Part shown: positions 4,753 through 30,236 of the stretch, one piece after another
Numbering within the stretch: position 1 is the first letter of the stretch
Layout: every line of letters begins with the position of its first letter
IMG/VR virus record: IMGVR_UViG_3300009130_000084
Coordinates: 1 to 34,190 of that record
Strand: one strand, 5' to 3'
From: a virus
Length of the DNA stretch: 34,190 nt
Notes under the pieces: generated by a model
Database searches by the model: none
What the model was told of the DNA's origin: nothing
The model's input: the letters and a program-made list of their open reading frames with translations, nothing else
Translations under genes and position numbers: made by a program

Positions 4753-4762
4753 AATAAATAGT
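4753..4762 (-). promoter_or_regulatory. ACTATTTATA-type element upstream of sheath gene (ACTATTTATT)
   Basis: The coding strand reads ACTATTTATT, one base from the recurrent ACTATTTATA element, 61 nt upstream of the sheath ATG in the gap after the gp15-like gene. The candidate function is a phage promoter element. A weak hairpin (CCAAT...ATTGG) lies just after the upstream stop codon but lacks a clean T tract. Confidence 0.4.
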
Positions 4763-12680: not shown

Positions 12681-13276
12681 TAGTCGTCTCCGAGTACGTC
12701 GTTAAGGGCTCGATTAATGCGGTCGGCTTTAGTGAGGTGGGTCTTAATTTTATTTTCCGCTACGAGAAAAGCGCCGGCAGTGCTGGGTTCTGAGACAAGA
12801 TCAAAACAAAGAAGCTGAAAGTCATCCTCGACCATCGTTACTCCATTTTCTTGTCGAGTAGAACCCAAGCCACGACTTGAGATACCCAAACAAACACCAC
12901 CCTCGACCAGTTGTTTCGCGATTTGTCCGGCGGGTGTATTGAGGATCTTCATTTTTCCCATCACATCGTTACCATTCCACCATATTTCGGTCATTACATG
13001 CGACGCATTCGAAAGATTAACAACGGCTCGATCAGGATGATCTAATTCCCCGACTGCCCTACCTTCCTTCACAAGTTTGGTATAGTTTTTTATTTCGCGC
13101 TCAAGAATTATCCGAGGATAGACTCGGTTGTTACCGTTTTTAGATTCTGCACATTGAATCTTGCCCGCCACAACGAGATGAAGTCCGGCTTTGTTACCTT
13201 CCTTTTCCTCCTCGGTGAGCAGGGTGTCACTGTAGTCTAATTCCATAAACTCTTGAAGAACATATTTTTCACTCAT
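12680..13276 (-). CDS. gp21: Prohead maturation protease, gp21-like serine protease
   Basis: A 198-aa protein of the T4 gp21 / herpesvirus-assemblin-like protease type (T4: 212 aa). Visible landmarks are NGNNRVYPRIILEREI (about 48-63), the histidine motif GELDHPD (H80) and the serine motif GISSRG (S133/S134), followed by LVSEPST (about 160-166). In T4 the enzyme cleaves after (L/I)-x-E in capsid, scaffold and internal proteins and then itself. This makes it the likely processing enzyme for the N-terminal peptides described elsewhere. AAGGAG lies about 9 nt before the ATG. The gene overlaps the preceding small ORF by 8 nt and the fibre-like gene by 1 nt. Confidence 0.92.
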   Translation of the reverse strand: MSEKYVLQEFMELDYSDTLLTEEEKEGNKAGLHLVVAGKIQCAESKNGNNRVYPRIILEREIKNYTKLVKEGRAVGELDHPDRAVVNLSNASHVMTEIWWNGNDVMGKMKILNTPAGQIAKQLVEGGVCLGISSRGLGSTRQENGVTMVEDDFQLLCFDLVSEPSTAGAFLVAENKIKTHLTKADRINRALNDVLGDD

Positions 13277-13535
13277 GGTTTGAACTCCTTATATCATTAA
13301 GTAGGATCTCTATATCATTCTCGTATTGTTGACCCTCTTCGGTACGTGGATCCCACGAATCTAAGATGTCTCGAATCTGCTGCTCAATTTTGGGAATATC
13401 CATATAAATCTCTGGCGACTCTGGCACCTCAACTCGTCGGGTGGGCCACGAGAAAGGAAGTCCACCGATAGCAGGGGTTTCGCTAACGATAACTTCCCGT
13501 ATGATATTCCTTATGTACTCTTTGTTTATTTTCAT
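13269..13535 (-). CDS. Small MKIS-type N-terminal peptide protein upstream of protease
   Basis: An 88-aa protein whose first 20 residues, MKINKEYIRNIIREVIVSET, belong to the recurrent MKIS/MKLT family. I-V-S-E followed by T (about 16-20) resembles a prohead-protease site. The remainder contains a Pro-rich stretch (GGLPFSWPTRRVEVPESPEI) and an acidic helix (IEQQIRDILDSWDPRTEEGQ). It overlaps the protease gene by 8 nt. T4 encodes small prohead-core proteins (gp67, gp68) between portal and protease; this could be a positional counterpart, but no similarity is claimed. No strong SD is visible. Confidence 0.6.
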   Translation of the reverse strand: MKINKEYIRNIIREVIVSETPAIGGLPFSWPTRRVEVPESPEIYMDIPKIEQQIRDILDSWDPRTEEGQQYENDIEILLNDIRSSNHE

Positions 13536-17221: not shown

Positions 17222-18793
17222 TTATCCTTTAATTATCCACCCTAAGTCGTGTGATCGCCCATCAGTACCCTTAAAGGTTTGTTGTCCCTGTTTGTAGCCG
17301 TGCTGTCCTTCAATTTTAGTATTTAACACAGTGTTAGAAACTGATATGCTATTGAGTAAGGCTTTATTATAATTAATCTCCCGTTGATTTACTGTTAAAG
17401 CTGTTTCTCGTACCCAACACGCAATAGACGTCGCAATAACCAAATCATCGTTATAACTCCGCATCGCTTGTGGTCGCCCATTGTGCCACACAAACGTTTT
17501 AATTTCGTTCGCCAAGCGCAATGAGTTAATTGTAATTAGCTTATTCCTGACGAATTCCTCAAACTTCGCAATAACAAGTGGGCGAGTCTTCATCGACATG
17601 GTAAAGCCAGGTACTCCTCCTACTGCTTGGGCAGTAAGCTCATCAACATATTCGTGAGTTGATTTTACACTATAATACAGATTGTTATAGAGCATCTCTT
17701 GGAGTCTATTAAGGACACCAATCCCTAAAGAATTATTCTCAATGACCAAAAGCGCATCATTATATTCTGACGCGATGGAGTGCAAAAGGGGAGCAAACAT
17801 ATCGGGAGTTATTTTCCCTTGATATTCCGCCACTTGTTCCATACTTTGGTTTTCGAAAACCTGGGCGACACTATAGTCACTACCGTCACCTCGTGCAACA
17901 TCAGCCACCAAGAGATATTCTCGGCTCGGTTCAGGCTCTTTCCATATCCAATAATTCCGGTCAAACCCGGTACGTTGCCGTGGTTCGGTGGCTCCCTCTA
18001 ATACTCTATGGAGGTCGTCTCCATGAACCACTGTCTCGCCCGATGCATTAAAATTACATTCTAATTCTTGTGCAATTTCTCGTTTAGACATGTTGCGGGT
18101 TTCTTTATGAAACCACGCCTGGTCACGTTCAGGGTGTACGTGCCACGGCAACAGAAGGGTCTGAAAGTCGTTTTTATTCTCTTTGGCTTCGGTATAGGTC
18201 TTATGAAACCAATTACCAACGCCATTGGGGGTAGATAAAGCTATACAGCGGCCACCTGTCGAAAGCGTCGGGTAAAGACCAGCCCATAGTTCATCCATCC
18301 CCTCCACAAAGGCAGCTTCATCCACCACTAAGAGAGAAAGCGCCTCAGAACGCCCGGCGTCGCCGGTGGTAGAGGATGCTTTAACTTGCGACCCGTTAGA
18401 CAATTCAAACGACTGGCGATTGTCAATAGAAATTTCCGCAATTTTAAGCCAGGGCGGCAAATGCTTATGGATAGCTTTAATCTTTTTAACTAAATTAGTG
18501 GCGGTTCCCAGCTTGGTAGCTACGACCAACACATTCTTATCGCGATGAAAGAGCATCAGCCAACAAACATAAGCCGCCACCGTAGTGGAAATGCCTAACT
18601 GGCGCGCTTTTAAAATAACAGTAAAACGATGCTTATTAAATTCGTCTAACGCTTCTTTTTGAAAATCATACAGATCAAAAGGAATCAGTCCCCGCATCGG
18701 ATGGGAGATCTGCGCATATTGGTTACAGAAATAAGCCGGATCTTTGCCACAGCGGATAATCTCCGCCATTGTTTCCCGCTTGGTGGACGGCAT
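17222..18793 (-). CDS. gp17: Terminase large subunit, gp17-like ATPase/nuclease
   Basis: A 523-aa DNA packaging motor (T4 gp17: 610 aa). The adenine-binding region PFDLYDFQKEALDEF is followed by Walker A KARQLGIST (about 62-70), Walker B LLVVDEA (D158, E159) and coupling motif ALSTP (about 185-189). The RNase-H-like nuclease domain shows acidic residues at D298 (LLVADVARG), E352 (LLVIENNS) and D449/D450 (YNDDLVIA). All key residues are present, so an active enzyme is expected. It starts at a TAATG junction with the upstream gene, with GGAGG 6 nt before the ATG. T4's longer N-terminus is missing. Confidence 0.95.
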   Translation of the reverse strand: MPSTKRETMAEIIRCGKDPAYFCNQYAQISHPMRGLIPFDLYDFQKEALDEFNKHRFTVILKARQLGISTTVAAYVCWLMLFHRDKNVLVVATKLGTATNLVKKIKAIHKHLPPWLKIAEISIDNRQSFELSNGSQVKASSTTGDAGRSEALSLLVVDEAAFVEGMDELWAGLYPTLSTGGRCIALSTPNGVGNWFHKTYTEAKENKNDFQTLLLPWHVHPERDQAWFHKETRNMSKREIAQELECNFNASGETVVHGDDLHRVLEGATEPRQRTGFDRNYWIWKEPEPSREYLLVADVARGDGSDYSVAQVFENQSMEQVAEYQGKITPDMFAPLLHSIASEYNDALLVIENNSLGIGVLNRLQEMLYNNLYYSVKSTHEYVDELTAQAVGGVPGFTMSMKTRPLVIAKFEEFVRNKLITINSLRLANEIKTFVWHNGRPQAMRSYNDDLVIATSIACWVRETALTVNQREINYNKALLNSISVSNTVLNTKIEGQHGYKQGQQTFKGTDGRSHDLGWIIKG

Positions 18794-19350
18794 TATGCCT
18801 CCGGCGTATCAGGATTTTTTTTAGCTTTATCGTTAGAAGGCCGTTTAGCTTTCGCCGTATTCCAGAAATCCTTGAACTGACTGTAATATGGGTCATCGCG
18901 GTGATTTTGGGAATCCGTACGAATGGCTTCCGCTCCCGCTTTTTCGAGTCCGCCGATACTATACTGCTTAGATGCCTGGACCCAGGTGCGATACTTTGAA
19001 GTGGCTTGAACCAGAATATCCACGCCATCTTGTGGCTTCAGGGTGATAGAATCTTTAGTGATATTTTTATATTCTTTTTTAAGAAACTTGGCGATGTCTT
19101 TGAACTTTTCCTCAATCTCGTTCTCAAAACGGTTGCGCGGATGAAGTTCTTTAACTTGCATTTCGCTCTGATAGTTTATAACAAGCTTATCGCCGGCATA
19201 TTTAACCGCGAACCCATCAATCACACGACTGTCGATAAGAGGATTCCCCTCTTCGCGCTTGAGTCCAATTTCTTTATCCAGATGGGCTCCATCGTAAGCA
19301 TTTGCTGCGGCTTGAGCCAGCCCTCGAATAATCTCTAATGTAGTAGCCAT
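18793..19350 (-). CDS. Conserved phage protein coupled to terminase, function unknown
   Basis: A 185-aa protein. The N-terminal helix MATTLEIIRGLAQAAANAYD is followed by GLKREEGNPLIDSRVIDGFA (about 29-48), a beta region (VKYAGDKLVINYQSEMQVKE), a charged helix (FENEIEEKFKDIAKFLKKEY) and a region with VDILVQATSKYRTWVQASKQ. From memory, this pattern is conserved near terminase or structural genes in aquatic T4-like phages. It shares a TAATG junction with terminase, where T4 has small terminase gp16, but I see no DNA-binding helix-turn-helix or gp16-like coiled coil. A minor structural protein is the main alternative. Confidence 0.6.
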   Translation of the reverse strand: MATTLEIIRGLAQAAANAYDGAHLDKEIGLKREEGNPLIDSRVIDGFAVKYAGDKLVINYQSEMQVKELHPRNRFENEIEEKFKDIAKFLKKEYKNITKDSITLKPQDGVDILVQATSKYRTWVQASKQYSIGGLEKAGAEAIRTDSQNHRDDPYYSQFKDFWNTAKAKRPSNDKAKKNPDTPEA

Positions 19351-19767
19351 TTATGTTCTTCTCCTTGAAAGCGTAGAATCTATATAATCATCATCGGGTC
19401 GCCAACCTGTTGTCCATTGTTCTTCCCGAGATTGAACAAAATCGTAATAACACGGACGACATACTTGAAACCTATTCATATATAGGTCATCAGCGGCTGA
19501 AAATGAATATGTTTTACACACGGGGCATGTTCGCCCTCCGGTTTTCACCTTTGGTCGTTTGCGTACAGTAATTTCCCCTATTTGTAATGTTTCCCGCGAA
19601 GGGGGTCGGTTCTGTGTTTTCGTGCGGCGGACAGACAATTGGGAAAAATATTCTTTTTCTTTATCCTCTTCCCAGTCGCAGCGGAAATCTTGCACTGCCT
19701 CTTTGCCATACTTTTGAGCAATAGCTTTTTCAATGGCTGCAACTTGATCCCAGTCTTTCTTGCTCAT
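19351..19767 (-). CDS. Zinc-ribbon protein of unknown function
   Basis: A 138-aa, highly charged protein with a treble-clef/zinc-ribbon pattern: CPVC (about 81-84) and CRPC (about 103-106), 18 residues apart, with the intervening TYSFSAADDLYMNRFQV. The N-terminal half is helical (WDQVAAIEKAIAQKYGKEAV) and the C-terminus is Arg/Asp/Trp-rich. Such small zinc proteins often bind nucleic acid or a polymerase, but nothing here fixes the partner. It ends directly before the next gene and starts in a 4-nt ATGA overlap with the preceding stop, so it belongs to a tightly packed operon. Confidence 0.6.
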   Translation of the reverse strand: MSKKDWDQVAAIEKAIAQKYGKEAVQDFRCDWEEDKEKEYFSQLSVRRTKTQNRPPSRETLQIGEITVRKRPKVKTGGRTCPVCKTYSFSAADDLYMNRFQVCRPCYYDFVQSREEQWTTGWRPDDDYIDSTLSRRRT

Positions 19768-20144
19768 CGCTGGTACACCGCATGAACAATTCCCACCGAC
19801 AACCCGGTCCCAAGGAGCAAACCCGTGAGAACACCGAGAGTTCCACGATTTCTGTCAAACCATGAGTTGTTTTTTTTGAGTTGATCTTCGAGCTTGATGA
19901 TGGAGGATTTATAGGTCTCCTGCATCTGCGTACATACCTTTTTATCTACCGAACAATCTCCCAATAGAGCATTGGTGTCTATTTTGTTCTGGAGAAGCTT
20001 GCGGAAATCTTCTTCGCTTATCAAGATTCCCACATAGGTGTCCCCTTCTACCTCAACCGCCGCAGGGCGTGGGTCAAAAGTGACGACCTCGGCACCTGCG
20101 GCGTTAAGTGAAAAGAATAATATGCACGCAACTATTTTCTTCAT
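19764..20144 (-). CDS. Exported membrane protein with signal peptide and C-terminal TM segment
   Basis: A 126-aa protein. The N-terminus MKKIVACILFFSLNAAGAEV is a clear signal peptide with a likely cleavage site after AGA (about 18). The mature part has an acidic beta region (VEVEGDTYVGILISEEDFRK), two Cys (about 63 and 70: CSVDKKVC) that could form a periplasmic disulfide, a short coiled coil (IIKLEDQLKKNN) and a C-terminal TM helix (GVLTGLLLGTGLSVGIVHAV). The predicted topology is a periplasmic domain anchored by its C-terminus. Neighbouring holin- and spanin-like genes suggest a role in lysis or envelope modification; no family recognised. Confidence 0.6.
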   Translation of the reverse strand: MKKIVACILFFSLNAAGAEVVTFDPRPAAVEVEGDTYVGILISEEDFRKLLQNKIDTNALLGDCSVDKKVCTQMQETYKSSIIKLEDQLKKNNSWFDRNRGTLGVLTGLLLGTGLSVGIVHAVYQR

Positions 20145-20145
20145 T

Positions 20146-21279
20146 TTATTTAAGGAACTTCTTTAGTCCCTCAATACGCTTAGAGGGTCGCTTCAGTCCG
20201 CTGACCAACGTATAGGTGACGAGCTTATCCCTCTTATCATCTTCATAAATGCCGCGATGAATGATGGCACCGCCCGTCAAAGCGGCCAGCGTATCAAATC
20301 CAAATTCAATACTATCCATCAACCCTACAGTCTCTTCAAAGATTTCTTCGCCCCCGACTACAATACAGGCTGCGCCCGTCGCAGTGGTCAAATCAAAGCC
20401 CTCTGCCAGCAGAGTTTTCTCCAGATTTTTCTTAAGAGCATTAGAGATAGCTGTTTCACTCTCTACATCTTTGACGCTGGTAACACCCATAATCATGCAC
20501 CCAGACTGTCGCATAATGCTGTCGTAATCGGTAGCATCAAAGGTTGTGTATTCTGAATCCTGATTTGCCAGGACGTTAAAGACGTGGAACAAGCCCGCGA
20601 CTGTATTGTTGATGGTGGTCCAAAACTTCTTCACTGTCAGTTTAGGGTAAAGTTTTTTAATCTTCTCGTTGTCCACCATAATGAGGGGGGCAATCTTCCC
20701 TTTCTCTGCGAGCCCGCAAAGTTGGTTAATGCGATTGTGAGCATTCTTGGCTACCGTGGGGGAAGCCGACTCGCCAGCCGTTGGAAGGGAAGCTATGACG
20801 CCAACCCGCTGGTCCACATCTTCTACACCAATGTAAGTGAAGTACTTTTTGGCGACTTTTATCAGGGTATTAACTGTCCCTCCACCAGAACCACCCGAAA
20901 CCCCAAGGCAAATCATGATGCGATCAACGTTGGTCCCGAAAATTTCACGGAACTTGTTGAACACTTCTTGTTCTTTGCGTTCGATGGCTGCTTCGGCTTT
21001 GGCTTGGTCTTTGCCGGCACCCTGTTCACCATGTTCGTCCACTAAGAACTTTTGCTCGTCGGGAATATCCAATCCATTAAGATCTGAGCGAGCGGTATTC
21101 ACCGCCACCGTCTTGGTATAACCCATGTCGTAAAACGCCTTTGCCATACGACCGCCGCCTTGGCCAGCGCCAACTATAGCATAAGTGAGCGCGCCGCCAG
21201 ACTTATCCTCGACGGTTTCCTGCTCTTCATTTAAGTCGGGATCATAGTCCTCGATTTCAAGTGTAGGAATGTCTACCAT
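20146..21279 (-). CDS. FtsZ/tubulin-superfamily GTPase
   Basis: A 377-aa protein with the tubulin/FtsZ nucleotide-binding plan. After a 30-residue acidic N-terminus come AIVGAGQGGGRMAKAF (about 34-49), VAVNTARSDLNGL (about 58-70, like FtsZ 'VNTD.q.L'), the GTP signature LGVSGGSGGGTV (about 125-136), and a likely T7 loop FDATDYDSIM (about 247-256) with acidic residues D248, D251 and D253. Phage tubulins (PhuZ, TubZ) polymerise to move or position DNA or capsids; bacterial FtsZ drives division. Which applies is unknown. It is among late genes upstream of the terminase block, behind TAAGGAG. No long C-terminal FtsA/ZipA-binding tail is evident. Confidence 0.8.
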   Translation of the reverse strand: MVDIPTLEIEDYDPDLNEEQETVEDKSGGALTYAIVGAGQGGGRMAKAFYDMGYTKTVAVNTARSDLNGLDIPDEQKFLVDEHGEQGAGKDQAKAEAAIERKEQEVFNKFREIFGTNVDRIMICLGVSGGSGGGTVNTLIKVAKKYFTYIGVEDVDQRVGVIASLPTAGESASPTVAKNAHNRINQLCGLAEKGKIAPLIMVDNEKIKKLYPKLTVKKFWTTINNTVAGLFHVFNVLANQDSEYTTFDATDYDSIMRQSGCMIMGVTSVKDVESETAISNALKKNLEKTLLAEGFDLTTATGAACIVVGGEEIFEETVGLMDSIEFGFDTLAALTGGAIIHRGIYEDDKRDKLVTYTLVSGLKRPSKRIEGLKKFLK

Positions 21280-21291
21280 TTGTTTTTCTCC

Positions 21292-21606
21292 TTAGATGTC
21301 TAATTCCTTATGAAGTCTGATGAGAGCTTTCAAACGTTCTTCCCGATCGTCTATTTTTGCGGTGTCCCGCAGGCGATTTTCAAAGACGCTCTTGACGGCT
21401 CCAATCTTATCTTTTTCCAGTCTACCACGTAACTCGGATTCCTTTAAGGCTACTGTGGCTTCTGTCTTTATGGCTTCCAAATATTTTACTTTATTATGTC
21501 CGGGTTTTAGCAGCCGATAAAAGTAAATCAGGAGGCTTGCCACGACGACAAACCCCAGTACAAACTTCCACCACCCGGACTTGAGCTTGTACCATAACCA
21601 TTTCAT
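21292..21606 (-). CDS. Membrane-anchored coiled-coil protein, Rz/i-spanin-like candidate
   Basis: A 104-aa protein, taking the ATG at 21606. A longer frame to 21681 exists, but it overlaps the upstream gene and starts with an unlikely Cys-rich stretch. The ATGA overlap with the upstream stop supports the shorter form. Residues about 12-32 (WKFVLGFVVVASLLIYFYRL) form one TM helix after a short basic, aromatic N-terminus. The rest is a charged helix (LRGRLEKDKIGAVKSVFENR; DDREERLKALIRLHKE). This N-anchor plus periplasmic coiled coil is the architecture of inner-membrane spanins that disrupt the outer membrane at lysis. The small holin-like gene directly upstream fits, but no o-spanin partner is certain. 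Confidence 0.55.
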   Translation of the reverse strand: MKWLWYKLKSGWWKFVLGFVVVASLLIYFYRLLKPGHNKVKYLEAIKTEATVALKESELRGRLEKDKIGAVKSVFENRLRDTAKIDDREERLKALIRLHKELDI

Positions 21607-21788
21607 TTTCCGTGTTTCCACCTGGCAGCAATATCGGCTGCTCCTTGTAATCCGATGTAGGCAAGCGATACAGCCACCCAATCGCTACTGGATAGAGCAC
21701 CTGTTGCCAAGAAAGCTGTGGAAGTCATCCATACCATTAATTTTCGTGATGCCCATTTTCCGAGCCATTGGTCTATTTTTTCGTGCAT
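21603..21788 (-). CDS. Small membrane protein, holin-like
   Basis: A 61-aa protein with two short hydrophobic segments (LMVWMTSTAFLATGAL and WVAVSLAYIGLQGAADIAA) separated by SSSD, a charged N-terminus (HEKIDQWLGKWASRK) and a basic C-terminus (ARWKHGK). Size, hairpin topology and charged ends are typical of class II holins. From memory, similar 'W...s.aYiG.Qg..D' sequences occur in T4-like phages. It overlaps the spanin-like gene by 4 nt and has GAGGAGG about 11 nt upstream. No endolysin is in the window, so the function rests on topology and neighbour only. Confidence 0.55.
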   Translation of the reverse strand: MHEKIDQWLGKWASRKLMVWMTSTAFLATGALSSSDWVAVSLAYIGLQGAADIAARWKHGK

Positions 21789-21811
21789 ATCTACAGCACC
21801 TCCTCTGTAGA

Positions 21812-21821
21812 TATAAGTAGT
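21812..21821 (-). promoter_or_regulatory. ACTATTTATA-type element upstream of holin-like gene (ACTACTTATA)
   Basis: The coding strand reads ACTACTTATA, one base from the recurrent element, 23 nt upstream of the ATG. The context GGACTACTTATA parallels GGACTATTTATA at the next gene upstream, and the spacing to the GAGGAGG site is similar. Confidence 0.4.
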
Positions 21822-21839
21822 CCAACCGAAAGGTTTTAA

Positions 21840-22289
21840 CTACCCCACGTCAACAGGGTCTTCAACCACCTCATCAGGGGGAACGACAGCCTCGGCTTCA
21901 GCCTGCGCGTCTTGAGCCTCTTGTGCCGCCGCGGCAGCAGCCGCAACAATGGTGCGTTTCAAAATACCGGCAAATTTCTTAGCTTGAGCGTCAGACAAAC
22001 CCATCTCCAGGGCAGCCTTTTCGGCACCTAAGCCTAAATTGGCGACGGTAGCCTGCTCGTCTTTAAATGCAATCAAATATTTAAGAAAAAGTCGTGAACC
22101 ATCCATGAACTCTTTGGGTCCCTGAAGTCTATTGACGGCAAGCCAGGCCGTTTTTCCATCCGCAGTTCCCGGCTCGAAAGGAACCACCCCTCTTTGACCG
22201 TCTTCCTTCAACAAACGGTGGATTACTTTCGGATTCTTCATTAACTCTTCTTTGAGGAGTTTGGTTAAATGACTTCGAGAAATCTTCAT
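21840..22289 (-). CDS. MKIS-type N-terminal peptide protein with Ala-rich helix
   Basis: A 149-aa protein starting MKISRSHLTKLLKEELMKNP, a member of the recurrent MKIS peptide family. R-L-L-K-E followed by D-G (about 25-31) resembles the L-K-E boundary of the MCP propeptide and the effector peptides. The body has a small folded region (DGKTAWLAVNRLQGPKEFMD; LFLKYLIAFKDEQATVANLG) and an Ala/Glu-rich helix (KRTIVAAAAAAAQEAQDAQA), ending in an acidic Pro/Val tail. No catalytic motif. GGGAGGG precedes the ATG, with an ACTATTTATA element 22 nt upstream. An internal virion protein is the working interpretation. Confidence 0.65.
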   Translation of the reverse strand: MKISRSHLTKLLKEELMKNPKVIHRLLKEDGQRGVVPFEPGTADGKTAWLAVNRLQGPKEFMDGSRLFLKYLIAFKDEQATVANLGLGAEKAALEMGLSDAQAKKFAGILKRTIVAAAAAAAQEAQDAQAEAEAVVPPDEVVEDPVDVG

Positions 22290-22310
22290 TATATTACCCT
22301 CCCAGGTGTC

Positions 22311-22320
22311 TATAAATAGT
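22311..22320 (-). promoter_or_regulatory. ACTATTTATA element upstream of MKIS-type gene
   Basis: The coding strand is an exact ACTATTTATA, 21 nt upstream of the ATG at 22289 and followed by a GGGAGGG ribosome-binding site. It is one of three exact copies in the window (7512-7521, here, 28936-28945). Confidence 0.5.
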
Positions 22321-22332
22321 CCATAAGATAGT

Positions 22333-22518
22333 TTAAAGATGTTTCTTTTTCGACCGCTGGTGAAGTTGTGTCAAGGATGAGCGTACTCTAATTTCTTTTC
22401 CCTCGTAAATAATGGTTGCGATCTTCTCCCACTTGTGGTATTCTTTTAGGAGACCTACCTTCCATCCTTCGTGGTCCGACCATGTGTATTTAAATCTTAC
22501 AAGGTCGCCGGCTCTCAT
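22333..22518 (-). CDS. Small SH3-like basic protein (AGDLV paralogue 2)
   Basis: A 61-aa protein beginning MRAGDLVRFKYTWSDHEGWK, with VGLLKEYHKWEKIATIIYEG and a basic C-terminus (QRSKKKHL). The alternating hydrophobic pattern and the opening 'aGDLVrf' suggest a compact SH3/KOW-like beta barrel. The upstream neighbour starts with the same MKAGDLV motif and overlaps by 4 nt (ATGA), so the two are probably diverged tandem duplicates. Small barrels of this type are common in phages, and their roles are mostly unknown. Confidence 0.55.
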   Translation of the reverse strand: MRAGDLVRFKYTWSDHEGWKVGLLKEYHKWEKIATIIYEGKEIRVRSSLTQLHQRSKKKHL

Positions 22519-22739
22519 TCTTTATTTTTCTTTTTTGTGCCCGGCGATACGACAACTATGTCGGTTTCGTGAATGTCATAAATGCCGCCTTCGGCGACTT
22601 CCATCCTATCGTCGCTTTCGTAGCCGACCCACCACACATTCCAGTATCCAGGCAGGTCGCACGGACCCATTACAAGACCGTAGCCGCCTGAGCCACTGCT
22701 GCTGAATATAGTACTTTGGACTAAATCACCGGCTTTCAT
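22515..22739 (-). CDS. Small SH3-like protein (AGDLV paralogue 1)
   Basis: A 74-aa protein beginning MKAGDLVQSTIFSSSGSGGY, then GLVMGPCDLPGYWNVWWVGY and a short beta region (GGIYDIHETDIVVVSPG) with a basic tail (KKKNKE). The frame is also open to an ATG at 22751, but the ATG at 22739 forms a TGATG junction with the stop of the small upstream gene and aligns with its paralogue's start, so I prefer it. The predicted SH3-like barrel may bind protein or nucleic acid. No function assigned. Confidence 0.55.
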   Translation of the reverse strand: MKAGDLVQSTIFSSSGSGGYGLVMGPCDLPGYWNVWWVGYESDDRMEVAEGGIYDIHETDIVVVSPGTKKKNKE

Positions 22740-22906
22740 CATAGGTCCCATTCACTGTCCCATATATCTTTATTTTTTTTTGGTTGCCCGGCATCCTCTC
22801 GGAGCGTGGATATAATGGATAGTCCAGTAGGCAAACCAATGATCGTAGAAAGCAGCAAGCCGCTGACGTAGGGATTAAGCTCCATAAACCAATCAAGAAC
22901 AGGCAT
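22739..22906 (-). CDS. 55-aa single-TM protein (short gene)
   Basis: An ATG at 22906 opens a 55-codon frame to a TGA at 22741-22739, filling the gap between the cytochrome gene (stop 6 nt upstream) and the SH3-like gene (1-nt TGATG overlap). The product starts MPVLDWFMELNPYVSGLLLS, continues with the hydrophobic TIIGLPTGLSIIST (TM about 13-33) and ends in a charged, Lys/Asp/Trp-rich tail (KKNKDIWDSEWDL). The compact junctions at both ends and membrane-like composition support a real gene. An accessory lysis or membrane role is possible; no family recognised. Confidence 0.55.
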   Translation of the reverse strand: MPVLDWFMELNPYVSGLLLSTIIGLPTGLSIISTLREDAGQPKKNKDIWDSEWDL

Positions 22907-22912
22907 CGTGCT

Positions 22913-23251
22913 TTATTTGTCTCCGAAATTTATCCTAATGTAGTCGATTACGTTTAGGGCCTGCTCTACACTAAGAAGGTTCTTCCACGGTGGCATCCGC
23001 CCTTTACCTTCAAAAATACTTTGGAGCAATGTACCATCGGGTTGAGCGAGGATAGACTTATCATTCACAAAGTCCGCCCCTAACCCGCCAAGTCCAGTCC
23101 CGTCATAACCATGGCACGACGTACAGTACATTATATAGGTTCGTTCGCCGGGATGCCGTGCGGCATCGTGTTTGGTTACTTCTGTTATTCCCGCATCAGA
23201 CGGGGTGGACTGGGAGCATCCGATTAGGGCGACAAGTATTATCTTTTTCAT
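22913..23251 (-). CDS. c-type cytochrome, predicted lipoprotein
   Basis: A 112-aa protein, taking the ATG at 23251 that has AGGA about 7 nt upstream (the frame also extends to 23284). The N-terminus MKKIILVALIGCSQSTPSDA has a lipobox (LIGC, Cys12), so it should be lipidated and placed in the periplasm. The mature domain has the haem c attachment motif CTSCH (C43, C46, H47), and GRMPPW (M86) supplies the usual axial Met; it ends in the helix LNVIDYIRINF seen in small class I cytochromes. Maturation would need the host cytochrome c assembly system. It could shuttle electrons during infection; the target is unknown. A bacterial origin is likely. Confidence 0.85.
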   Translation of the reverse strand: MKKIILVALIGCSQSTPSDAGITEVTKHDAARHPGERTYIMYCTSCHGYDGTGLGGLGADFVNDKSILAQPDGTLLQSIFEGKGRMPPWKNLLSVEQALNVIDYIRINFGDK

Positions 23252-23267
23252 TTTACTTCCTAGGGGG

Positions 23268-23492
23268 TTATATCTCACATTCACACTCTTTTATTTTGTT
23301 CCGACGATTTCTGACTCTACACAAAGGGCACCGAATATAATGTGAATCACTTTCATAAAACATAGCCCAAAGTCTGGGAACCCTCAACGCTATTCTCCAC
23401 GGTCCAATAAACCACAGGATACAACACCGAGGTATATTAGAATGTCGTCCGCACTCCCAGTGGTATTTTATTTTATTGAGATACGAAAGCAT
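23268..23492 (-). CDS. Small Cys-rich putative zinc protein
   Basis: A 74-aa protein (ATG at 23492; in-frame ATGs at 23498 and 23516 are alternatives). It contains YHWECGRHSNIPRCCILWFI (about 11-30), then YIRCPLCR (about 55-62) and a final CEC. The 'CGR.S.IP.CCI.WF' pattern is, from memory, typical of a small uncharacterised phage/bacterial family with an apparent membrane-seeking Trp-rich segment and a CxxC zinc site. It overlaps the end of the SbcCD-like gene by 20 nt and precedes the cytochrome gene. The Cys and His could bind zinc. Function unknown. Confidence 0.55.
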   Translation of the reverse strand: MLSYLNKIKYHWECGRHSNIPRCCILWFIGPWRIALRVPRLWAMFYESDSHYIRCPLCRVRNRRNKIKECECEI

Positions 23493-26400
23493 ACCCATCT
23501 TGACGCTCAATGTCAATGGTCATATCGGCAATATCTTTGAGACTATCCAAGTGAGTAATCAAAAGCACAGTCTTGTAGTAGCCCTTAATCATTTCCATCA
23601 CTCGCATAAAGCCTTCAAGGTTTTCGGCGTCCAATGCTGTGCCTGGCTCATCCATAATCATAATGTCAGATTTTGGTAGGGTTGAGACGTTGGTTAGGGC
23701 GATGCGGATGGCGATGGCTGCAAGCGTTTTCTCTGCGCCGGAAGCCATCTCTAAAGGTCGTGCTTCGTACTTGGGGTGCTTGATGAAAATATCTAATTTG
23801 TTTTTTTCTGCCTCGAAAAACACCTCAAAGTCGGTGACGTTGGAAAGTACCGTGCTGATTTCCTCGTTGATGAGGGGGAGCATCCGCTTGACCACATCAT
23901 AGCTGATTCCGTTGGGGTGGCAACAACGCATAAATAAGTCGTAGGCCGCATACTCGGTTCGCAGGTCTTCAAGTTCCTGCTTCTTGTCTTCAATATTGGC
24001 AATCTGGGTTTCAATCCCGCCGTGTTGTTTTACAAGGTCGAGCACCTTGGCTTCGCAGATAGCAATGTCGCTCTCCATTTTGAGGGCTTTTTCCTTCAAG
24101 TCGTCCTGCTCTGTGATAAGTCCCTCTCGGTTCTCAATCGCTTCCTTGTTGAGTTCATAGACTTCAATCTTGGTTTTGATGCTTGCCATCTCGTTGGTGA
24201 GAAGATGGAGTTTGTTTTTGGTTTGCGCTAGAAGTAAGTCAAGGTTGGTTGCCTCGGTACAGAGGTCCGCGTATTCCTTATCTCTGTCTTTATAAAGTTG
24301 GTTAGCTGCCTCCAGTGCACTTACATCCAGCCCCTCAAGAGTGGTGAATAATTGAGAGCGGCGGCGTCGCCACACCATCAAAGTCCGGCGCACGTCCGCA
24401 AGAAGTTCCTTAGCCTCGTAAGCGTCCTTAATATATTTACGCAATCCGCAATCAGGACCACAAGGCACCTCTTCCAAGACAGCCAATTTCTTCTCATAGG
24501 TCTCTTTATTACGTTCTTCAAGGACTATTTGACTTTCTAAGGTAGAAAGCTCGTTCTGTATTTCTTCGCAGTGAGTAAGCTTCGTGCGAAGGGAGGTCAC
24601 ATCAGTATCCTCCAGAAGCTTCTTTAAGGTTGCCGCCTGAGATAGTACATCTTTCTTTTGGTTTTTGGTTTGGGCTTCCTTCAAATTAAGGGAGGAGTAT
24701 TCTTGTTTCGCTTTCTCCAAGCGACGAGACTCTTTGGTGATATTGATAATTTCAACTGGGGCTGAAGCAAACTGATCTTCGATCTCTTTAATCCGAAGAT
24801 TAATAGAAGACAAGTCGTTAGTGAAAGTGGTGCACTTCTTTTCTTGCTTCTTTCGCGCCTTATCATTATCGGACAGTTCTTGATGAAGTTGCGTAATATC
24901 TTCCTCAAAAGTATTTCCCTCTAATTTTCTTAACAGGGCACGAGTCTCTATACTGTCATTCTTGGAGGCTCGGAATTTCTTCTCAAACTGGTCAAGGTCT
25001 AAAAATTTGGCGAGGATTTCTTTACGCTTAGTTGAGCCCTCGTTGATAAAAGTCATCGCACCCATTTGACTGGACATGCTCGTCAACAAGAAATCCTCAA
25101 TACTCCCAAAAACTTTACGGATGGCTTTGTCTGTGCCGTTCCGGTCCAGCGAATTCATGCTGGTCTCTTCTTCTGTCGCTGGGTCGTAAATTGTAAATTC
25201 TACATCGGTCTTGGCTTCAAGGGTTTCTTCCCCATGAAGTTTCTTGGTGTATTTCTCTGAGTTCCGTTCGATGATGTAGGTCTTGCCGGCAATCTCGATC
25301 TCGGCTCGTCCGCAACCGGACGGCTTATTCTGGTTGATAATGTTCAGATTCTTACGATTGTTTTTGCTAATTGAATTATATACCGTATAAAGCATACTGT
25401 CAACAACAGAACTCTTGCCTGAGTAGTTCTTTCCGAAGACGCCGACGACGCCATTCAACTTATCAAAATTGATCGTGTTGCCCTCACCGTAATTGAAGAG
25501 GTTGTCCCACTCCAACTTTTTCAAGGACCACTCTACATTGCGGAGTCCAGCATCTTCGCCGTTTACGGTGGAGTCATACTTAGAATTAAGTTGAAATACT
25601 TTTTCTAATGTCTTATCGTCGGGTTCATACTCTTTTAAGTATTCCCGAATTAATCGCTCTTGAACTGCGGGGTCTCGTAGGTTCTCTGTGTTGCCGAGGT
25701 CGTCTACGTTTACGCTGTCTCGTTTTAGTCCCGCTTTATTGACGAATGAAAGGCTTTCAGGCTTGAACCGGCTCTTGGCTATATCCATCACTCGGCGGAT
25801 TTTATCAAGGGAAACCTTGTGATGAGTTACCACACGAAGCCGGGCCCCTTCTGGAATGTTTACTTTGCGAGGGAGATTTCCCTTCTCCGTCATCTCAATC
25901 GTCATAAAGGGCTTGACGTTTTTCACAAGGTGGTGCTCCACCGTGAAGTGAGTCTTGCTTTTAATATCCCAAATCAAGAAGCCCTTGTCGTTTGTTTCGC
26001 CGTGGTTTTGCTGAATGGTAGATCCGCAATAGCGAATCGTTCCGCTCTCGTTTAGGACTTGATTAGTCTTGTGAATGTCGCCGAGCATCGCATAATCAAA
26101 CTTATCAAACACCTTAATGTCGTGGTCGCCGTAGTCCATCACCCACCCAAGGTCGGTTTGACTATTATTAATTGCTCCGTGATAAAGAGCGATGTTGATA
26201 GCCTCTGTGTCTGTCGGGTCTGTCCAATTGGTCTCATCAAAGATTGACAAAACGTTTAGAGTCAGGTCATCTTCTAACTGGACCTCTCCTGAATACTTGT
26301 GTAGGATTAGGCTTGGGTGGTTGAGTGCTTCCACAATCGGAGTGATGGCATCTTGCCGACTACTGTTGCGTAGGTTACCGTCGTGATTGCCCAGGATGAT

Positions 26401-26625
26401 GTGAGTCTCGGCGATGTCAGCCAAGTTCTTTAGGAACTCAGTGGCTAATTCAAAATACTCTGGCGAGAGTTGTGTTTTTGTGTGAGCCAAATCGCCAGTG
26501 TGGACGATATAGTCTACCTTCTGTGCCCGCAGGGTCTTATAAATCTCCTCAAATGCTTTTCTATATTCATAGTGATATTTCAGATTTTTGATATGGGTAT
26601 CCCCGAAATGTGCAATCCGCACCAT
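23473..26625 (-). CDS. Fused Mre11/SbcD nuclease - Rad50/SbcC ATPase (gp47-gp46 fusion)
   Basis: A 1050-aa polypeptide joining two normally separate proteins. Residues 1-220 carry metallophosphoesterase motifs: GDTH (8-11), GDLAHT (44-49), GNHDG (79-83), H149 (YHG) and GDIHKT (182-187). Residues 366-1045 are an SMC-type ATPase: Walker A GKNYSGKS (398-405), coiled coils (about 545-715 and 735-895), ABC signature ASGAEKT (961-967), Walker B DIMIMDE (987-993), D-loop ALDA and H-loop H1025. T4 gp47 and gp46 resect DNA ends for recombination-dependent replication. The hook region is CGPDC (722-726), so three rather than the usual two residues separate the Cys. AAGGAG lies 8 nt before the ATG. Confidence 0.93.
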   Translation of the reverse strand: MVRIAHFGDTHIKNLKYHYEYRKAFEEIYKTLRAQKVDYIVHTGDLAHTKTQLSPEYFELATEFLKNLADIAETHIILGNHDGNLRNSSRQDAITPIVEALNHPSLILHKYSGEVQLEDDLTLNVLSIFDETNWTDPTDTEAINIALYHGAINNSQTDLGWVMDYGDHDIKVFDKFDYAMLGDIHKTNQVLNESGTIRYCGSTIQQNHGETNDKGFLIWDIKSKTHFTVEHHLVKNVKPFMTIEMTEKGNLPRKVNIPEGARLRVVTHHKVSLDKIRRVMDIAKSRFKPESLSFVNKAGLKRDSVNVDDLGNTENLRDPAVQERLIREYLKEYEPDDKTLEKVFQLNSKYDSTVNGEDAGLRNVEWSLKKLEWDNLFNYGEGNTINFDKLNGVVGVFGKNYSGKSSVVDSMLYTVYNSISKNNRKNLNIINQNKPSGCGRAEIEIAGKTYIIERNSEKYTKKLHGEETLEAKTDVEFTIYDPATEEETSMNSLDRNGTDKAIRKVFGSIEDFLLTSMSSQMGAMTFINEGSTKRKEILAKFLDLDQFEKKFRASKNDSIETRALLRKLEGNTFEEDITQLHQELSDNDKARKKQEKKCTTFTNDLSSINLRIKEIEDQFASAPVEIINITKESRRLEKAKQEYSSLNLKEAQTKNQKKDVLSQAATLKKLLEDTDVTSLRTKLTHCEEIQNELSTLESQIVLEERNKETYEKKLAVLEEVPCGPDCGLRKYIKDAYEAKELLADVRRTLMVWRRRRSQLFTTLEGLDVSALEAANQLYKDRDKEYADLCTEATNLDLLLAQTKNKLHLLTNEMASIKTKIEVYELNKEAIENREGLITEQDDLKEKALKMESDIAICEAKVLDLVKQHGGIETQIANIEDKKQELEDLRTEYAAYDLFMRCCHPNGISYDVVKRMLPLINEEISTVLSNVTDFEVFFEAEKNKLDIFIKHPKYEARPLEMASGAEKTLAAIAIRIALTNVSTLPKSDIMIMDEPGTALDAENLEGFMRVMEMIKGYYKTVLLITHLDSLKDIADMTIDIERQDGYAFVSQ

Positions 26626-26679: not shown

Positions 26680-27000
26680 TTAGTCCTTGTAATCGTCTAG
26701 GAAGCCAGGGGCAGCTAGCATTGCATACTCATATCCACCACGGATAAAATCCGGATGCTCTTTGGCTTTTTCTTTGGCCTCTTCTCTACTTGATGCCATC
26801 ACATGAACTCTAGTGCTCTCGATTGTATTTCGCCCGACATCTTTACCAATCTTAACTTCATACTCTTCTTTGGGTTTCTTTGACCCATAACTTGAGCCCC
26901 GTACATTAGAAGAAGGATGTCCTCCCGAAGTGTAGCCGGCGAATATCTCGTTAAGCTCTTCTTTGATTATCTTTCGTAGTTGAGACTTGGTGATTTTCAT
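26680..27000 (-). CDS. MKIS-type N-terminal peptide protein, function unknown
   Basis: A 106-aa protein starting MKITKSQLRKIIKEELNEIF, the clearest form of the recurrent MKIS peptide; E-E-L-N-E lies at about 14-18. A Gly/Ser-rich linker (GYTSGGHPSSNVRGSSYGSK) follows, then a small mixed alpha/beta domain (EYEVKIGKDVGRNTIESTRV; SSREEAKEKAKEHP) and a final segment RGGYEYAMLAAPGFLDDYKD. It overlaps the preceding gene by 4 nt (ATGA), with AGGAGAGGG upstream. Peptide, linker, domain is what an exported or packaged cargo protein would look like. Confidence 0.65.
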   Translation of the reverse strand: MKITKSQLRKIIKEELNEIFAGYTSGGHPSSNVRGSSYGSKKPKEEYEVKIGKDVGRNTIESTRVHVMASSREEAKEKAKEHPDFIRGGYEYAMLAAPGFLDDYKD

Positions 27001-27932
27001 GAGCTTAAACCCTCTCCTATATGTGTAAGTGCCGGACTTGCAATTAACCGCTGAAGGATTTCTTCTACAATATTATCAGAGCGGTTGCCCGGTCTGTTTT
27101 GTTTTCTGCTTGCGCTCGCCATCTGACGCTTGGCTTTGCGTTTCTTTTCTGCGCCGGCGGCAGGGCGTCTGGCTGGACGTTTCGATGCGCGTTCTTTAGC
27201 TTGAGCAGCTAAGCGCGCCTGTCTGTTGGGTCCAGGTTTTACCGAAGCCAATACTTTATCCCCTTCGTTTTTGAGTATTTCAACTTGTTGGGTGCGGTAA
27301 GCACGGGCTTCGGGAGATTTGGAAGTAGACTTTTGGAAGAAGTCGTATATAGCCATTAGATCTGCCGATTTTCCACTCCCAGCAAATTGAGTATCACCCC
27401 CTTCCGCACTTCCAGCGTGGGCTTTAATTTTGGCATGAGCCCATTTTTCGAGGGCTTTTTTGAGATTGCCTGCGCGGCCCCGAGGGTCTTGAGTTATTTT
27501 TCCGGCACGGTCAACATAATACCTGAGTTGTTCAGGATTGCCCAGTACTTCTAAGTTGCTATCCAACGCACTCACTATTCCTAAATAAACCAAAGCAGCT
27601 TCGCGATTATTATTGGGGAGATCCGCAACGTAATTGGCGGCAATCTTTTTGGCTAAGCGTTGTGCCTCGGCGTCATCTTTTGGAGGAAAACCAGCAGTCG
27701 GTGCCTGGTTAAGCGCATCATAATCAATTATAAAAGATGCCAACTCTTCGCGGGCTTCCGCTGCTTCGCCAGATTTGGCACCTTTATTTTGTTGAGCCAG
27801 TTGACGAAGACGGGCAGCTTCCTCTTTCCCAAAACACTGTTCGGGTGTATAACAGGGGACGTTTCGCTCGTTTAAAGTTTGCGTGATCGAGACCTGAATT
27901 AGTTCACGAAGGTGAGATTTCGTGAGTTTCAT
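26997..27932 (-). CDS. MKIS-type protein with basic, DNA-binding-like C-terminal region
   Basis: A 311-aa protein starting MKLTKSHLRELIQVSITQTL, a diverged MKIS peptide; L-N-E at about 20-22 could be a processing site. The middle (about 45-200) is helical and polar. Residues about 235-290 are extremely basic and Ala-rich (for example KRPARRPAAGAEKKRKAKRQ), resembling a histone H1-like tail. A basic internal protein that helps compact or neutralise packaged DNA is inferred. The protein ends in a predicted helix (IVEEILQRLIASPALTHIGE). C27 and C33 lie within a few residues of each other. It abuts the next gene upstream (2 nt). Confidence 0.6.
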   Translation of the reverse strand: MKLTKSHLRELIQVSITQTLNERNVPCYTPEQCFGKEEAARLRQLAQQNKGAKSGEAAEAREELASFIIDYDALNQAPTAGFPPKDDAEAQRLAKKIAANYVADLPNNNREAALVYLGIVSALDSNLEVLGNPEQLRYYVDRAGKITQDPRGRAGNLKKALEKWAHAKIKAHAGSAEGGDTQFAGSGKSADLMAIYDFFQKSTSKSPEARAYRTQQVEILKNEGDKVLASVKPGPNRQARLAAQAKERASKRPARRPAAGAEKKRKAKRQMASASRKQNRPGNRSDNIVEEILQRLIASPALTHIGEGLSS

Positions 27933-27934
27933 GG

Positions 27935-28267
27935 CTAGTCTTTGCCTGGTTTTGCCGATGCCTCTGTGGTTTCGATGCTGGGATATTTCGATTTCACGTG
28001 CCTTTGAACCGTCTTAACTAAACTGGAGAGGCTTCCCTCATACCACTTCGGAACGGATGAATACTGACTGGCACGTGCGAGAGCGTTGCGTGCTTGAGAC
28101 TCGCTATTGATTGGGAAATGATCCTTATCATCTTTTACTTTGGAGCTTTCAGCGGAAAATACTACATCACCGCGGTTGCGTACCTTAGCGTCCGGATCCT
28201 TCTTTTCCGAAAGGCGAGAAACCTCTTCTTGAACGAGTTGGCGTAGATAGGAGCGGTTGAGTTTCAT
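27935..28267 (-). CDS. MKIS-type N-terminal peptide protein with DUF6582-like domain
   Basis: A 110-aa protein starting MKLNRSYLRQLVQEEVSRLS; R-L-S-E precedes KKD (about 18-24). The domain contains SSKVKDDKDHFPINSESQAR (about 41-60), NALARASQYSSVPKWYEGSL and a last helix (LVKTVQRHVKSKYP). From memory, this 'kvKdgkDHFPi.te.qArnALaRv.qy...P.Wy.GsL..l...V...V..kyP' layout matches a small uncharacterised family (DUF6582-like) often inside larger phage proteins. Here it stands alone behind the peptide. Basic at the C-terminus; no catalytic role known. Confidence 0.65.
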   Translation of the reverse strand: MKLNRSYLRQLVQEEVSRLSEKKDPDAKVRNRGDVVFSAESSKVKDDKDHFPINSESQARNALARASQYSSVPKWYEGSLSSLVKTVQRHVKSKYPSIETTEASAKPGKD

Positions 28268-28276
28268 AGTATTGCC

Positions 28277-28489
28277 CTAGTCTTCGTCACGATCTTCGTG
28301 CCGGTCTTCGGCGCGGTCATGCTGATGCTTTAAGTAATCGATATGGCGATTCATCTCTCGGCGAATATCTTCAAGATGATCAACATCCATGTCATCATGC
28401 CTTTCCTCGTCATGAAAAGTGTCCTCTTTCATGACTTTGGTCAGTTCCTCGCGAATAACTTGTAATAGTTTAGATTTAGAGATTTTCAT
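28277..28489 (-). CDS. Small MKIS-type protein with charged His/Asp-rich body
   Basis: A 70-aa protein, taking the ATG at 28489. A longer frame to 28738 exists but runs through the upstream gene and would bury the MKIS peptide. The start MKISKSKLLQVIREELTKVM is almost identical to the next gene's peptide, at DNA level too; V-M-K-E is followed by D. The body is extremely polar (FHDEERHDDMDVDHLEDIRR; HIDYLKHQHDRAEDRHEDRD), one charged helix with about ten His, which could bind metal. It may act as a packaged peptide or spacer. GGTGG lies shortly upstream. Confidence 0.6.
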   Translation of the reverse strand: MKISKSKLLQVIREELTKVMKEDTFHDEERHDDMDVDHLEDIRREMNRHIDYLKHQHDRAEDRHEDRDED

Positions 28490-28493
28490 ATTA

Positions 28494-28913
28494 TTACCAC
28501 CCGTAGCCGCCTTGTCCACGAGCTTTCCTTGCGTACCACTCCCTATCGCCGGCTTTCTGTTGAGAGATTCTTTTACTCCCAATAGCTGTGCCGCCGCCGG
28601 GGATGCGGCTGTCCCTCGAACTCGTTGGGTTGCTCCATCGTGCAGGTCCGGATGATCCGTATCCTCTAGGATTGACGCCACTTGTAGAGTCGCCCAGTCG
28701 AGCAGCCTCTTCATCCGTATCCGGACGTTCGCCTTCAAGTTCGTCGTGACCGGCTTCCTTCAGAAGCTTATTAAGAGCACGGCGGTTTTGGCGAGCATAG
28801 CGCCAGAGCGAATCGATGTTCTTGTCTTCGCGTTCATCGGCTGACTCCTCCGCAAGAACAGCGGTAAGTTCTTCTTTGATGACCTGAATCAGTTTAGATT
28901 TAGAGATTTTCAT
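28494..28913 (-). CDS. MKIS-type N-terminal peptide protein, disordered Gly/Arg-rich body
   Basis: A 139-aa protein starting MKISKSKLIQVIKEELTAVL; V-L-A-E precedes ESADE (about 19-27), a possible processing boundary. A helical region (SLWRYARQNRRALNKLLKEA) is followed by a Gly/Ser/Arg/Pro-rich, disordered part (GVNPRGYGSSGPARWSNPTS) and a C-terminal KARGQGGYGW. The Arg/Gly/Tyr composition resembles nucleic-acid-binding low-complexity tails. It has a strong GGAGGG site and an ACTATTTATA element 23 nt upstream, so it may head a transcript covering the MKIS genes. Confidence 0.6.
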   Translation of the reverse strand: MKISKSKLIQVIKEELTAVLAEESADEREDKNIDSLWRYARQNRRALNKLLKEAGHDELEGERPDTDEEAARLGDSTSGVNPRGYGSSGPARWSNPTSSRDSRIPGGGTAIGSKRISQQKAGDREWYARKARGQGGYGW

Positions 28914-28947: not shown

Positions 28948-29751
28948 TTAAATCCCCGCAAGTCTCAAAACATCTGATGTTATTGCTAAAACGAAGATTC
29001 CGAGCACCATAACGGCACCAATAATATTTAGTACGTTGCGAGTCTTTACAGCCAATTTTTTCCGTCTTATTCCTTCGACTACAGAAATGCCGATATGTCC
29101 ACCATCTAATACTGGGATTGGTAGTAAGTTAATTACACCGAGATTGATGGAGAAAAAGGCAATCCAATCTATTAAGAATCCCCAGTCTCCTGTGTCTGCG
29201 CTGCGTTTTCTTGCTTGTTCCGTAAATTCATAAACGGCTACAGGTCCGCCCACTTCTTTAATAGACATAGGCTCTTTGCGAGGCATTGTTGCGGCTTCCC
29301 AAATGCTGCTATACATCTTCACCGATATTTTATGAGAGTAGCCAGCCGCTTCCATTACGCCGATGCGGTGGGGGATAGCTCCCTCTGGCACATAAACATC
29401 AGGGTATGGCTGCCCGACCAAGAGCATAAAATATAATGGCCACGGCAACAACAAATTAAACACCGGACCCATCACCGCTATGAAGGCTCGCTTCCATGCC
29501 GACACCGACCAAAAAGATTCGGGGTCATTTTTCTTGTTGTGATAATCATCTTCGCCACGAGGTTTGATGTAGCCGCCAAGAGGTATGAGCGACAAACGCC
29601 ACTCAGTTCCCCATAGTTTCTTCTTAAGGAGGACTTTCCCGAACCCTATTGAAAAACTATCAACGGCGACGCCCATTGCTCGGGCTGCGACATAATGTCC
29701 CAGTTCATGAACAAAAATTACTAAAACAATTATTCCAAGAAAGGTAAGCAT
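28948..29751 (-). CDS. M50 / site-2-type intramembrane metalloprotease
   Basis: A 267-aa membrane protease; the ATG at 29751 has GGAGG about 8 nt upstream (a TTG at 29769 is possible). The zinc motif HELGH (H15, E16, H19) lies in the first TM helix and the third ligand motif NLLPIPVLDGG (N208-G218, D216) in a later one; AVMGPVFNLLLPWPLYFMLL is another TM. E. coli RseP (about 450 aa) has two PDZ domains; here only about 40 residues (YPDVYVPEGAIPHRIGVM) lie in that place. Cellular S2P enzymes cut membrane-bound anti-sigma factors or signal-peptide remnants. A role in altering the host envelope stress response or maturing phage membrane proteins is inference. Confidence 0.88.
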   Translation of the reverse strand: MLTFLGIIVLVIFVHELGHYVAARAMGVAVDSFSIGFGKVLLKKKLWGTEWRLSLIPLGGYIKPRGEDDYHNKKNDPESFWSVSAWKRAFIAVMGPVFNLLLPWPLYFMLLVGQPYPDVYVPEGAIPHRIGVMEAAGYSHKISVKMYSSIWEAATMPRKEPMSIKEVGGPVAVYEFTEQARKRSADTGDWGFLIDWIAFFSINLGVINLLPIPVLDGGHIGISVVEGIRRKKLAVKTRNVLNIIGAVMVLGIFVLAITSDVLRLAGI

Positions 29752-30236
29752 AGGTTGCCCTCCTGACAAACGTTTGTGGATTGTGGCATGTGGTGTGGGA
29801 GTTGGTAATCCCTGAATAATATATTAGGACCCTTGGACCAGGCATCGTCTTCTTCGAATATTTTACACCTTTCGGCGGCTCTTCTTTGGGCGTCCATCGG
29901 AGTCCAGAGTTGCAGGTAGTTGTGTATCTTTTTATTTTCTTCCCGCAGTTTTTGCATCTCCGTGCTCTGGGCTTTAATGGTAGTCTCTAGGCTGTAGATT
30001 GCTTGACTGGCAGCCTTTTCCAGCCGTTCCTCTATATGGCTCTCATTCACGACATACAAAAGGAGACCCATAAAAATAGTACAAACAACAGCCGCCACGA
30101 CCGAAGTCCAAACGACTGCTGAAAGATAGTTAGTCTTAATCTTGGTAGCAGGCGGAGTGCTATAGTCCTGCGTGTATTGGACAGAGTTCCGTGCGTTTTC
30201 TCTGATTCTGTGGAATGCGTCCCTTTCTCGGCTCAT
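29730..30236 (-). CDS. Single-TM coiled-coil membrane protein
   Basis: A 168-aa protein with a cytosolic basic N-terminus of about 40 residues, one TM helix (VVWTSVVAAVVCTIFMGLLL, about 41-60), a coiled coil (EERLEKAASQAIYSLETTIK; AQSTEMQKLREENKKIHNYL) and a C-terminal region with three Cys (about 123, 157, 162) that would be periplasmic and could form a disulfide. The topology is spanin-like, but the globular Cys-containing end is unusual for spanins. The gene overlaps the protease start by 22 nt, so the two are probably coupled and could be substrate or partner. There is no visible SD; an ACTATTTACT box sits 2 nt before the ATG. Confidence 0.6.
   Translation of the reverse strand: MSRERDAFHRIRENARNSVQYTQDYSTPPATKIKTNYLSAVVWTSVVAAVVCTIFMGLLLYVVNESHIEERLEKAASQAIYSLETTIKAQSTEMQKLREENKKIHNYLQLWTPMDAQRRAAERCKIFEEDDAWSKGPNILFRDYQLPHHMPQSTNVCQEGNLCLPFLE

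Follow-up and report, generated by a model that had tools for sequence, protein, structure and literature searches.

The 34-kb virus record analysed here (the window, 34,190 nucleotides and itself a fragment) encodes a bona fide GTPase of the tubulin/FtsZ superfamily, with a similarity far beyond chance. The protein represents a separate, highly constrained phage tubulin subfamily carried on about 135 metagenomic viral contigs, and its closest cellular relatives found are chromosomal genes of one order of Planctomycetota. What is established is its place in the superfamily and its fold, with the catalytic residues intact; so are the extreme conservation of the gene, its fixed order among neighbours in close relatives and the lack of chimallin in long ones. 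As to function, we propose that this member of a distinct phage/planctomycete subfamily builds filaments driven by GTP, which would organise packaging or assembly late in infection, and we consider the odds of this about even.

GTP-binding loops and fold of the phage tubulin

The tubulin gene lies on the minus strand, at exactly the coordinates given in the initial annotation (Table 1); the plus-strand frame at the same place is interrupted by several stops. Its product matched the Pfam families Tubulin (E = 2.3e-9) and TubZ-like_C (E = 3.2e-8), exceeding the curated cut-off in both cases (34.1 bits against 26 for PF22453, TubZ-like_C), which bears out the earlier call of an FtsZ/tubulin-like GTPase. 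The GGSGGGT signature, the VNTARSDL segment and the acidic T7 loop on which that call had been based are all present. In an alignment with FtsZ and TubZ, the T1 (GxGQGG), T4 (GGSGGGT), T6 (DN) and T7 (FDxxD) elements fall into register and both T7-loop aspartates are retained, so that, as judged from the alignment, the catalytic loops are intact.

Table 1 Features of the tubulin gene and its surroundings in the window
Feature	Position	Strand	Basis or remark
Tubulin/FtsZ-superfamily GTPase CDS, 377 aa	20146..21279	-	ATG 21277-21279, stop 20146-20148
Conserved N-terminal motif IPTLEIE (aa 4-10)	21250..21270	-	Alignment of phage and planctomycete members
T1 nucleotide loop GAGQGGG (aa 37-43)	21151..21171	-	Alignment
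VNTARSDL segment (aa 60-67)	21079..21102	-	Sequence
T4 G-box GGSGGGT (aa 129-135)	20875..20895	-	Sequence and alignment
T7 catalytic loop FDATDY (aa 247-252), retaining both acidic residues	20524..20541	-	Alignment
Likely ribosome-binding site AAGGAG of tubulin gene	21288..21293	-	Sequence
Preceding gene, 129 aa, apparent membrane-spanning segment	21292..21681	-	In 66/80 close relatives
Following gene, start resembling a signal peptide, apparent membrane segment at the C terminus	19764..20144	-	In 79/80 close relatives
Terminase large subunit, end of tubulin gene run	17222..18793	-	Family matches
ACTATTTA octamer, candidate late promoter	22313..22320	-	Ahead of gene at 22289 leading into tubulin/terminase run

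A structure model built from 30 diverse family members was of high confidence (pLDDT 89.7, pTM 0.89) and replaced an earlier, poor model from 21 near-identical sequences (pLDDT 49). Foldseek ranked TubZ first. A second fold aligner likewise placed TubZ at Z 37.8, with 333 residues superposed at 2.4 Å, followed by CetZ2 (35.9), phage c-st TubZ (32.8) and FtsZ (31.7); families missing from its list are not thereby excluded. With the loops intact and the model superposing on TubZ, the GTP-binding geometry, whose loss the initial annotation had named as the observation that would overturn its reading, is kept.

Near the N terminus, the motif [IL]Px[LI]x[LI]E was found in 163 of the 166 phage sequences retrieved, among which some contigs had been fetched twice, and in nearly all planctomycete sequences. 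It precedes the T1 loop by 30–35 residues in phage members and mostly by 32 in planctomycete members, a spacing so constant that it points to a defined element for docking. A partner or a neighbouring subunit would be likely to dock at the IPxLxLE motif, but model confidence there is low (pLDDT about 49), so this role is a guess. IPTLEIE also resembles the FtsZ C-terminal peptide, a reading that we dropped as the residues following the motif differ. At the other end, the protein stops directly after the C-terminal domain with KRIEGLKKFLK, which is short and basic rather than acidic.

Late-gene context, spread and constraint

The window carries genes for T4-like tube, sheath, MCP, head protease, portal, T4-type terminase large subunit (TerL) and T4_baseplate family proteins, in keeping with the T4-like genome that had been described. 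Transcription of the tubulin gene run proceeds from 21681 to 17222, in the order 21292–21681, tubulin, 19764, 19351, 18793 and TerL. This minus-strand run thus ends in TerL, and its order is kept in close relatives, so the placement upstream of the packaging genes also held. The tubulin start lies 12 bases past the preceding gene and its end just ahead of the following one; each immediate neighbour tested was present in 66–79 of 80 close loci, and the following gene has, as far as tested, no part in tubulin function. Among distant relatives, tubulin is near the terminase gene in part of them only, and the tie to packaging may therefore be a mere tie of late expression.

The octamer ACTATTTA occurs on the minus strand of the window at 4755, 7514, 10456, 10960, 22313, 28938 and 30241. 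Each of the seven precedes a gene start and lies on the coding strand, against an expectation of 1.29; in the close relatives (loci L002–L081) the coding strand carries 166 and the opposite strand 1. Structural genes and the gene run leading into tubulin are both preceded by these strand-specific octamers, making ACTATTTA a candidate late promoter of the phage clade and supporting the late expression that we propose for the tubulin.

About a dozen small proteins on the minus strand (11256–11648, 13269–13535, 21840–22289, 26680–28913 and 30271–32208) have shared N-termini, for example MKKLLTEWRKFLKE or MKISKSKLIQVIKEEL, resembling the capsid-targeting sequences of T4 internal proteins that are cut at (L/I)xE; by this analogy they are possibly a packaged, injected set. 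The minus strand also encodes a tail sheath of 1001 aa (1686–4691), roughly double the length of the sheath profile that it matches best, and a 1050-aa ORF (23473–26625) in which SbcD-like and SbcC-like halves (T4 gp47 and gp46 type) are fused. In the late region, 22913–23284 and 28948–29769 (minus strand) encode a c-type cytochrome (Cytochrome_CBB3) and a site-2-protease/RseP-like membrane protease. The protein encoded at 32205–34151 (minus strand) has 648 aa, including a NUDIX domain as well as other regions that are uncharacterised; a GNAT-like protein (30588–31016) lies nearby.

Using successive IMG/VR scans, we found the tubulin family on about 135 distinct viral contigs, at 50–97% identity. 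The full-length proteins form 25 clusters at 85% identity, the lowest at ~50% to the window protein. Family-bearing contigs reach 241 kb, and one relative of 190,528 bases is probably near full length because its ends are co-linear and similar. The carriers are many T4-like phages known from metagenomes alone; the sole match in a cultured phage was gp138 of Bacillus phage G (22–27% identity), and matches among plasmid proteins were TubZ-like, at ≤26% identity.

Compared with 72 relatives, the tubulin has a median amino acid identity of 93.1% and a pN/pS of 0.05, with synonymous sites near saturation (pS 0.74), which indicates purifying selection. Median identities were 81.3% for TerL and 69.0% for portal, and the tubulin is the most constrained of the neighbourhood genes measured. 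Such extreme conservation is as expected if most of the tubulin surface makes filament contacts.

In the filament account that we favour, the tubulin would probably be produced late in infection, together with terminase and structural proteins. Its subunits would polymerise head to tail, the nucleotide pocket of one meeting the T7 loop of its neighbour, and predicted GTP hydrolysis would drive the filaments. As an internal scaffold or motor, these may bring replicating DNA, capsids or packaging sites into position, with the N-terminal motif docking a partner or a neighbouring subunit; neither a phage nucleus nor a TubR/tubC partner would take part.

Chromosomal relatives in Planctomycetota

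A narrow profile gave no matches in a scan of genomes, whereas a diverse profile recovered one contig, from a Planctomycetota MAG, whose protein is 50% identical. On inspection of the sequence, its neighbours are bacterial (AccD-, aminotransferase- and sugar-transporter-like), and the MAG holds three copies of the family. We found the family in 4 of 392 genomes drawn across Planctomycetota, all 4 belonging to a group of 28 family-bearing genomes among the 161 of one order, where 1–3 paralogues, often 2–3, are present. These copies score up to 575 bits against the family profile. Another lies on a 2.96-Mb contig with genes for a dehydrogenase-E1/transketolase-type enzyme, HPPK, pantoate ligase and housekeeping functions nearby; on the strength of this second contig and of the bacterial-housekeeping-like neighbours of the first, we rejected a mis-binned phage. 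The separate phage/planctomycete lineage was not foreseen in the initial annotation, which was right that the GTPase is real.

None of the 28 family-bearing genomes has a canonical FtsZ above the curated cut-off, which 13 of 14 control genomes reach; matches to the FtsZ model in the 28 score ≤58 bits and lie at the places of the tubulin family itself. The absence is firm as a pattern only, because MAG completeness is not given, and it agrees with reports that planctomycetes lack FtsZ (PMC5147048, PMC11929135).

Most active planctomycete copies begin with about 48–271 residues of which 24–46% are Lys or Arg, nearly free of acidic residues and rich in Ala, Thr and Pro. Their resemblance to histone H1-like tails suggests DNA binding. 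Some planctomycete copies are tail-less, and none of the phage copies is tailed. Some paralogues are without a G-box: second planctomycete paralogues of about 351–364 aa (L218, L219, L220 and L222) keep IPELELE and have lost the GGGTGGG G-box.

Phylogenetic analysis placed phage and planctomycete proteins in two groups, split by one branch in 200 of 200 bootstrap trees and likewise in a quick tree; the trees held no CetZ set, and the outgroup was too distant to root them. On these sequences, the two appear as deep sister groups without recent exchange. The simplest account is one old transfer, in either direction, as the position of the root is unstable (for the phages as one clade, AU p = 0.485).

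We also compared 20 kb of the window with the 161 genomes of the order. The only clear match was at the tubulin gene, beside a few short matches at chance level and no convincing spacer-like match, indicating that, for those 20 kb, tubulin is shared as a single gene and not via a prophage. There was no close terminase of the phage clade in the same genomes (the best is 34% identical), and we found no CRISPR-spacer or prophage link to this order.

These relatives give rise to the main rival of the filament account, in which the phage protein joins, caps or displaces homologous host tubulin filaments in planctomycetes lacking FtsZ; a tail-less phage partner would free the host chromosome or block division or segregation. 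The homologues in 28 of 161 genomes, all without canonical FtsZ above the cut-off, fit this idea, as do the phage–cellular identity of about 50–55%, the common N-terminal motif and spacing, and the basic tail missing in phage copies. Against it stand the single, deep phage/cellular split and the lack of spacer-like and close terminase matches in this order, and we regard host-filament interference as rather unlikely. Equally tentative is a broader conjecture: in some FtsZ-less Planctomycetota, the lineage may be an H1-tailed, chromosome-binding cytoskeleton that could replace FtsZ or a partition system, and abundant T4-like phages would have exchanged genes with this lineage, their tail-less version perhaps serving to organise the cell or to hijack it. 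The chromosomal tubulins of the 28 genomes without a canonical FtsZ above the curated cut-off, most of them tailed, are a concrete candidate for how FtsZ-less planctomycetes divide or segregate DNA, and the family may reveal a filament system common to viruses and FtsZ-less cells.

Comparison with known tubulin systems

Most phage tubulins known so far come from nucleus-forming phages, phage c-st and phage G. PhuZ of phiKZ and 201phi2-1 is, like the window protein, a phage-encoded tubulin, and a PhuZ-type spindle centring a phage nucleus would suit the large phage that carries the gene; PhuZ-like proteins do appear among the viral fold matches. Those matches are much weaker, however (TM 0.51–0.56 among viral models, against 0.71–0.77 for TubZ), the match to the PHROG PhuZ family was non-significant (E = 0.086; best of 30 members 0.0089), and the C-terminal end is basic, not acidic. 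Scores against the family profile were 3–9 bits for PhuZ, 69–80 for TubZ and 101 for phage G gp138. The nuclear-shell protein chimallin, suggested earlier as a check, was absent from nine long relatives; the same search did detect it in the two control phages (phiKZ, 1.8e-232; 201phi2-1, 1.2e-220). Absence from fragments is weak evidence, strengthened here by the 190-kb contig with overlapping ends among the nine. A search for a single-subunit RNA polymerase gave nothing above the cut-off. The PhuZ spindle, already weakened, thus appears highly improbable, and the kinship to PhuZ raised in the initial annotation was not borne out, while the GTPase with intact loops, the T4-like genome and the adjoining packaging genes stood. 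Because long family contigs are without a shell gene, a phage nucleus may be dispensable for spindle-like organisation.

The general homology to FtsZ leaves room for an inhibitor of FtsZ in an ordinary FtsZ-using host. The protein is far from FtsZ, however, scoring 48.3 bits where the equivalog cut-off is 295.2, and is without the C-terminal conserved peptide for FtsA, ZipA or SepF. That the catalytic residues are intact and the whole family is constrained points to assembly of its own rather than a poison, and we give inhibition only a slim chance.

The open papers searched, a fraction of the literature, contained no account of the phage subfamily, nor one of the planctomycete proteins with tails, so novelty is unproven. 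The best viral fold match, an uncultured Caudovirales phage FtsZ (BFVD A0A6J5RW92; E = 2.9e-32, TM 0.85), is an uncharacterised database entry with 26% identity to the window protein. Archaeal CetZ (4b45, 4b46), which has a role in cell shape, resembles it in fold (Z 34.7–35.9) at about 21–24% identity, a likeness that by itself does not settle whether the two group together. Gp138 of phage G, annotated as a putative FtsZ-like protein, scores 101 bits against the family profile but groups with TubZ in trees, outside the family, and its gene sits among nucleotide-metabolism genes rather than packaging genes. The planctomycete tubulins, at 50–55% identity, share the motif spacing of the phage ones.

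The nearest solved relative is Bacillus TubZ/RepX (4ei7; E = 1.8e-10 with a single sequence, 1.2e-24 with the family profile), and a further rival is accordingly a TubZ-type DNA segregation system that would let the phage genome persist in the manner of a plasmid, as an episome. TubZ/RepX of Bacillus plasmids (4ei7, 2xka) is the best relative in both sequence and fold; the TubZ-like_C domain and the T1, T4, T6 and T7 loops are found in the phage tubulin, and one plasmid TubZ gene follows a small, probably TubR-like ORF. The ORF preceding the phage gene is instead of membrane type and matches no DNA-binding family, although TubR is too divergent to be excluded elsewhere. No iteron array of the tubC type was found in 19300–23500 around the gene, nor did 25 diverse relatives have a conserved small partner gene in common, and the genomes resemble those of lytic T4-like phages; episome maintenance is therefore improbable. 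At about 21% identity to TubZ/RepX, the phage tubulin combines a short C-terminus with a conserved N-terminal IPxLxLE motif, and it belongs to lytic-looking T4-like phages.
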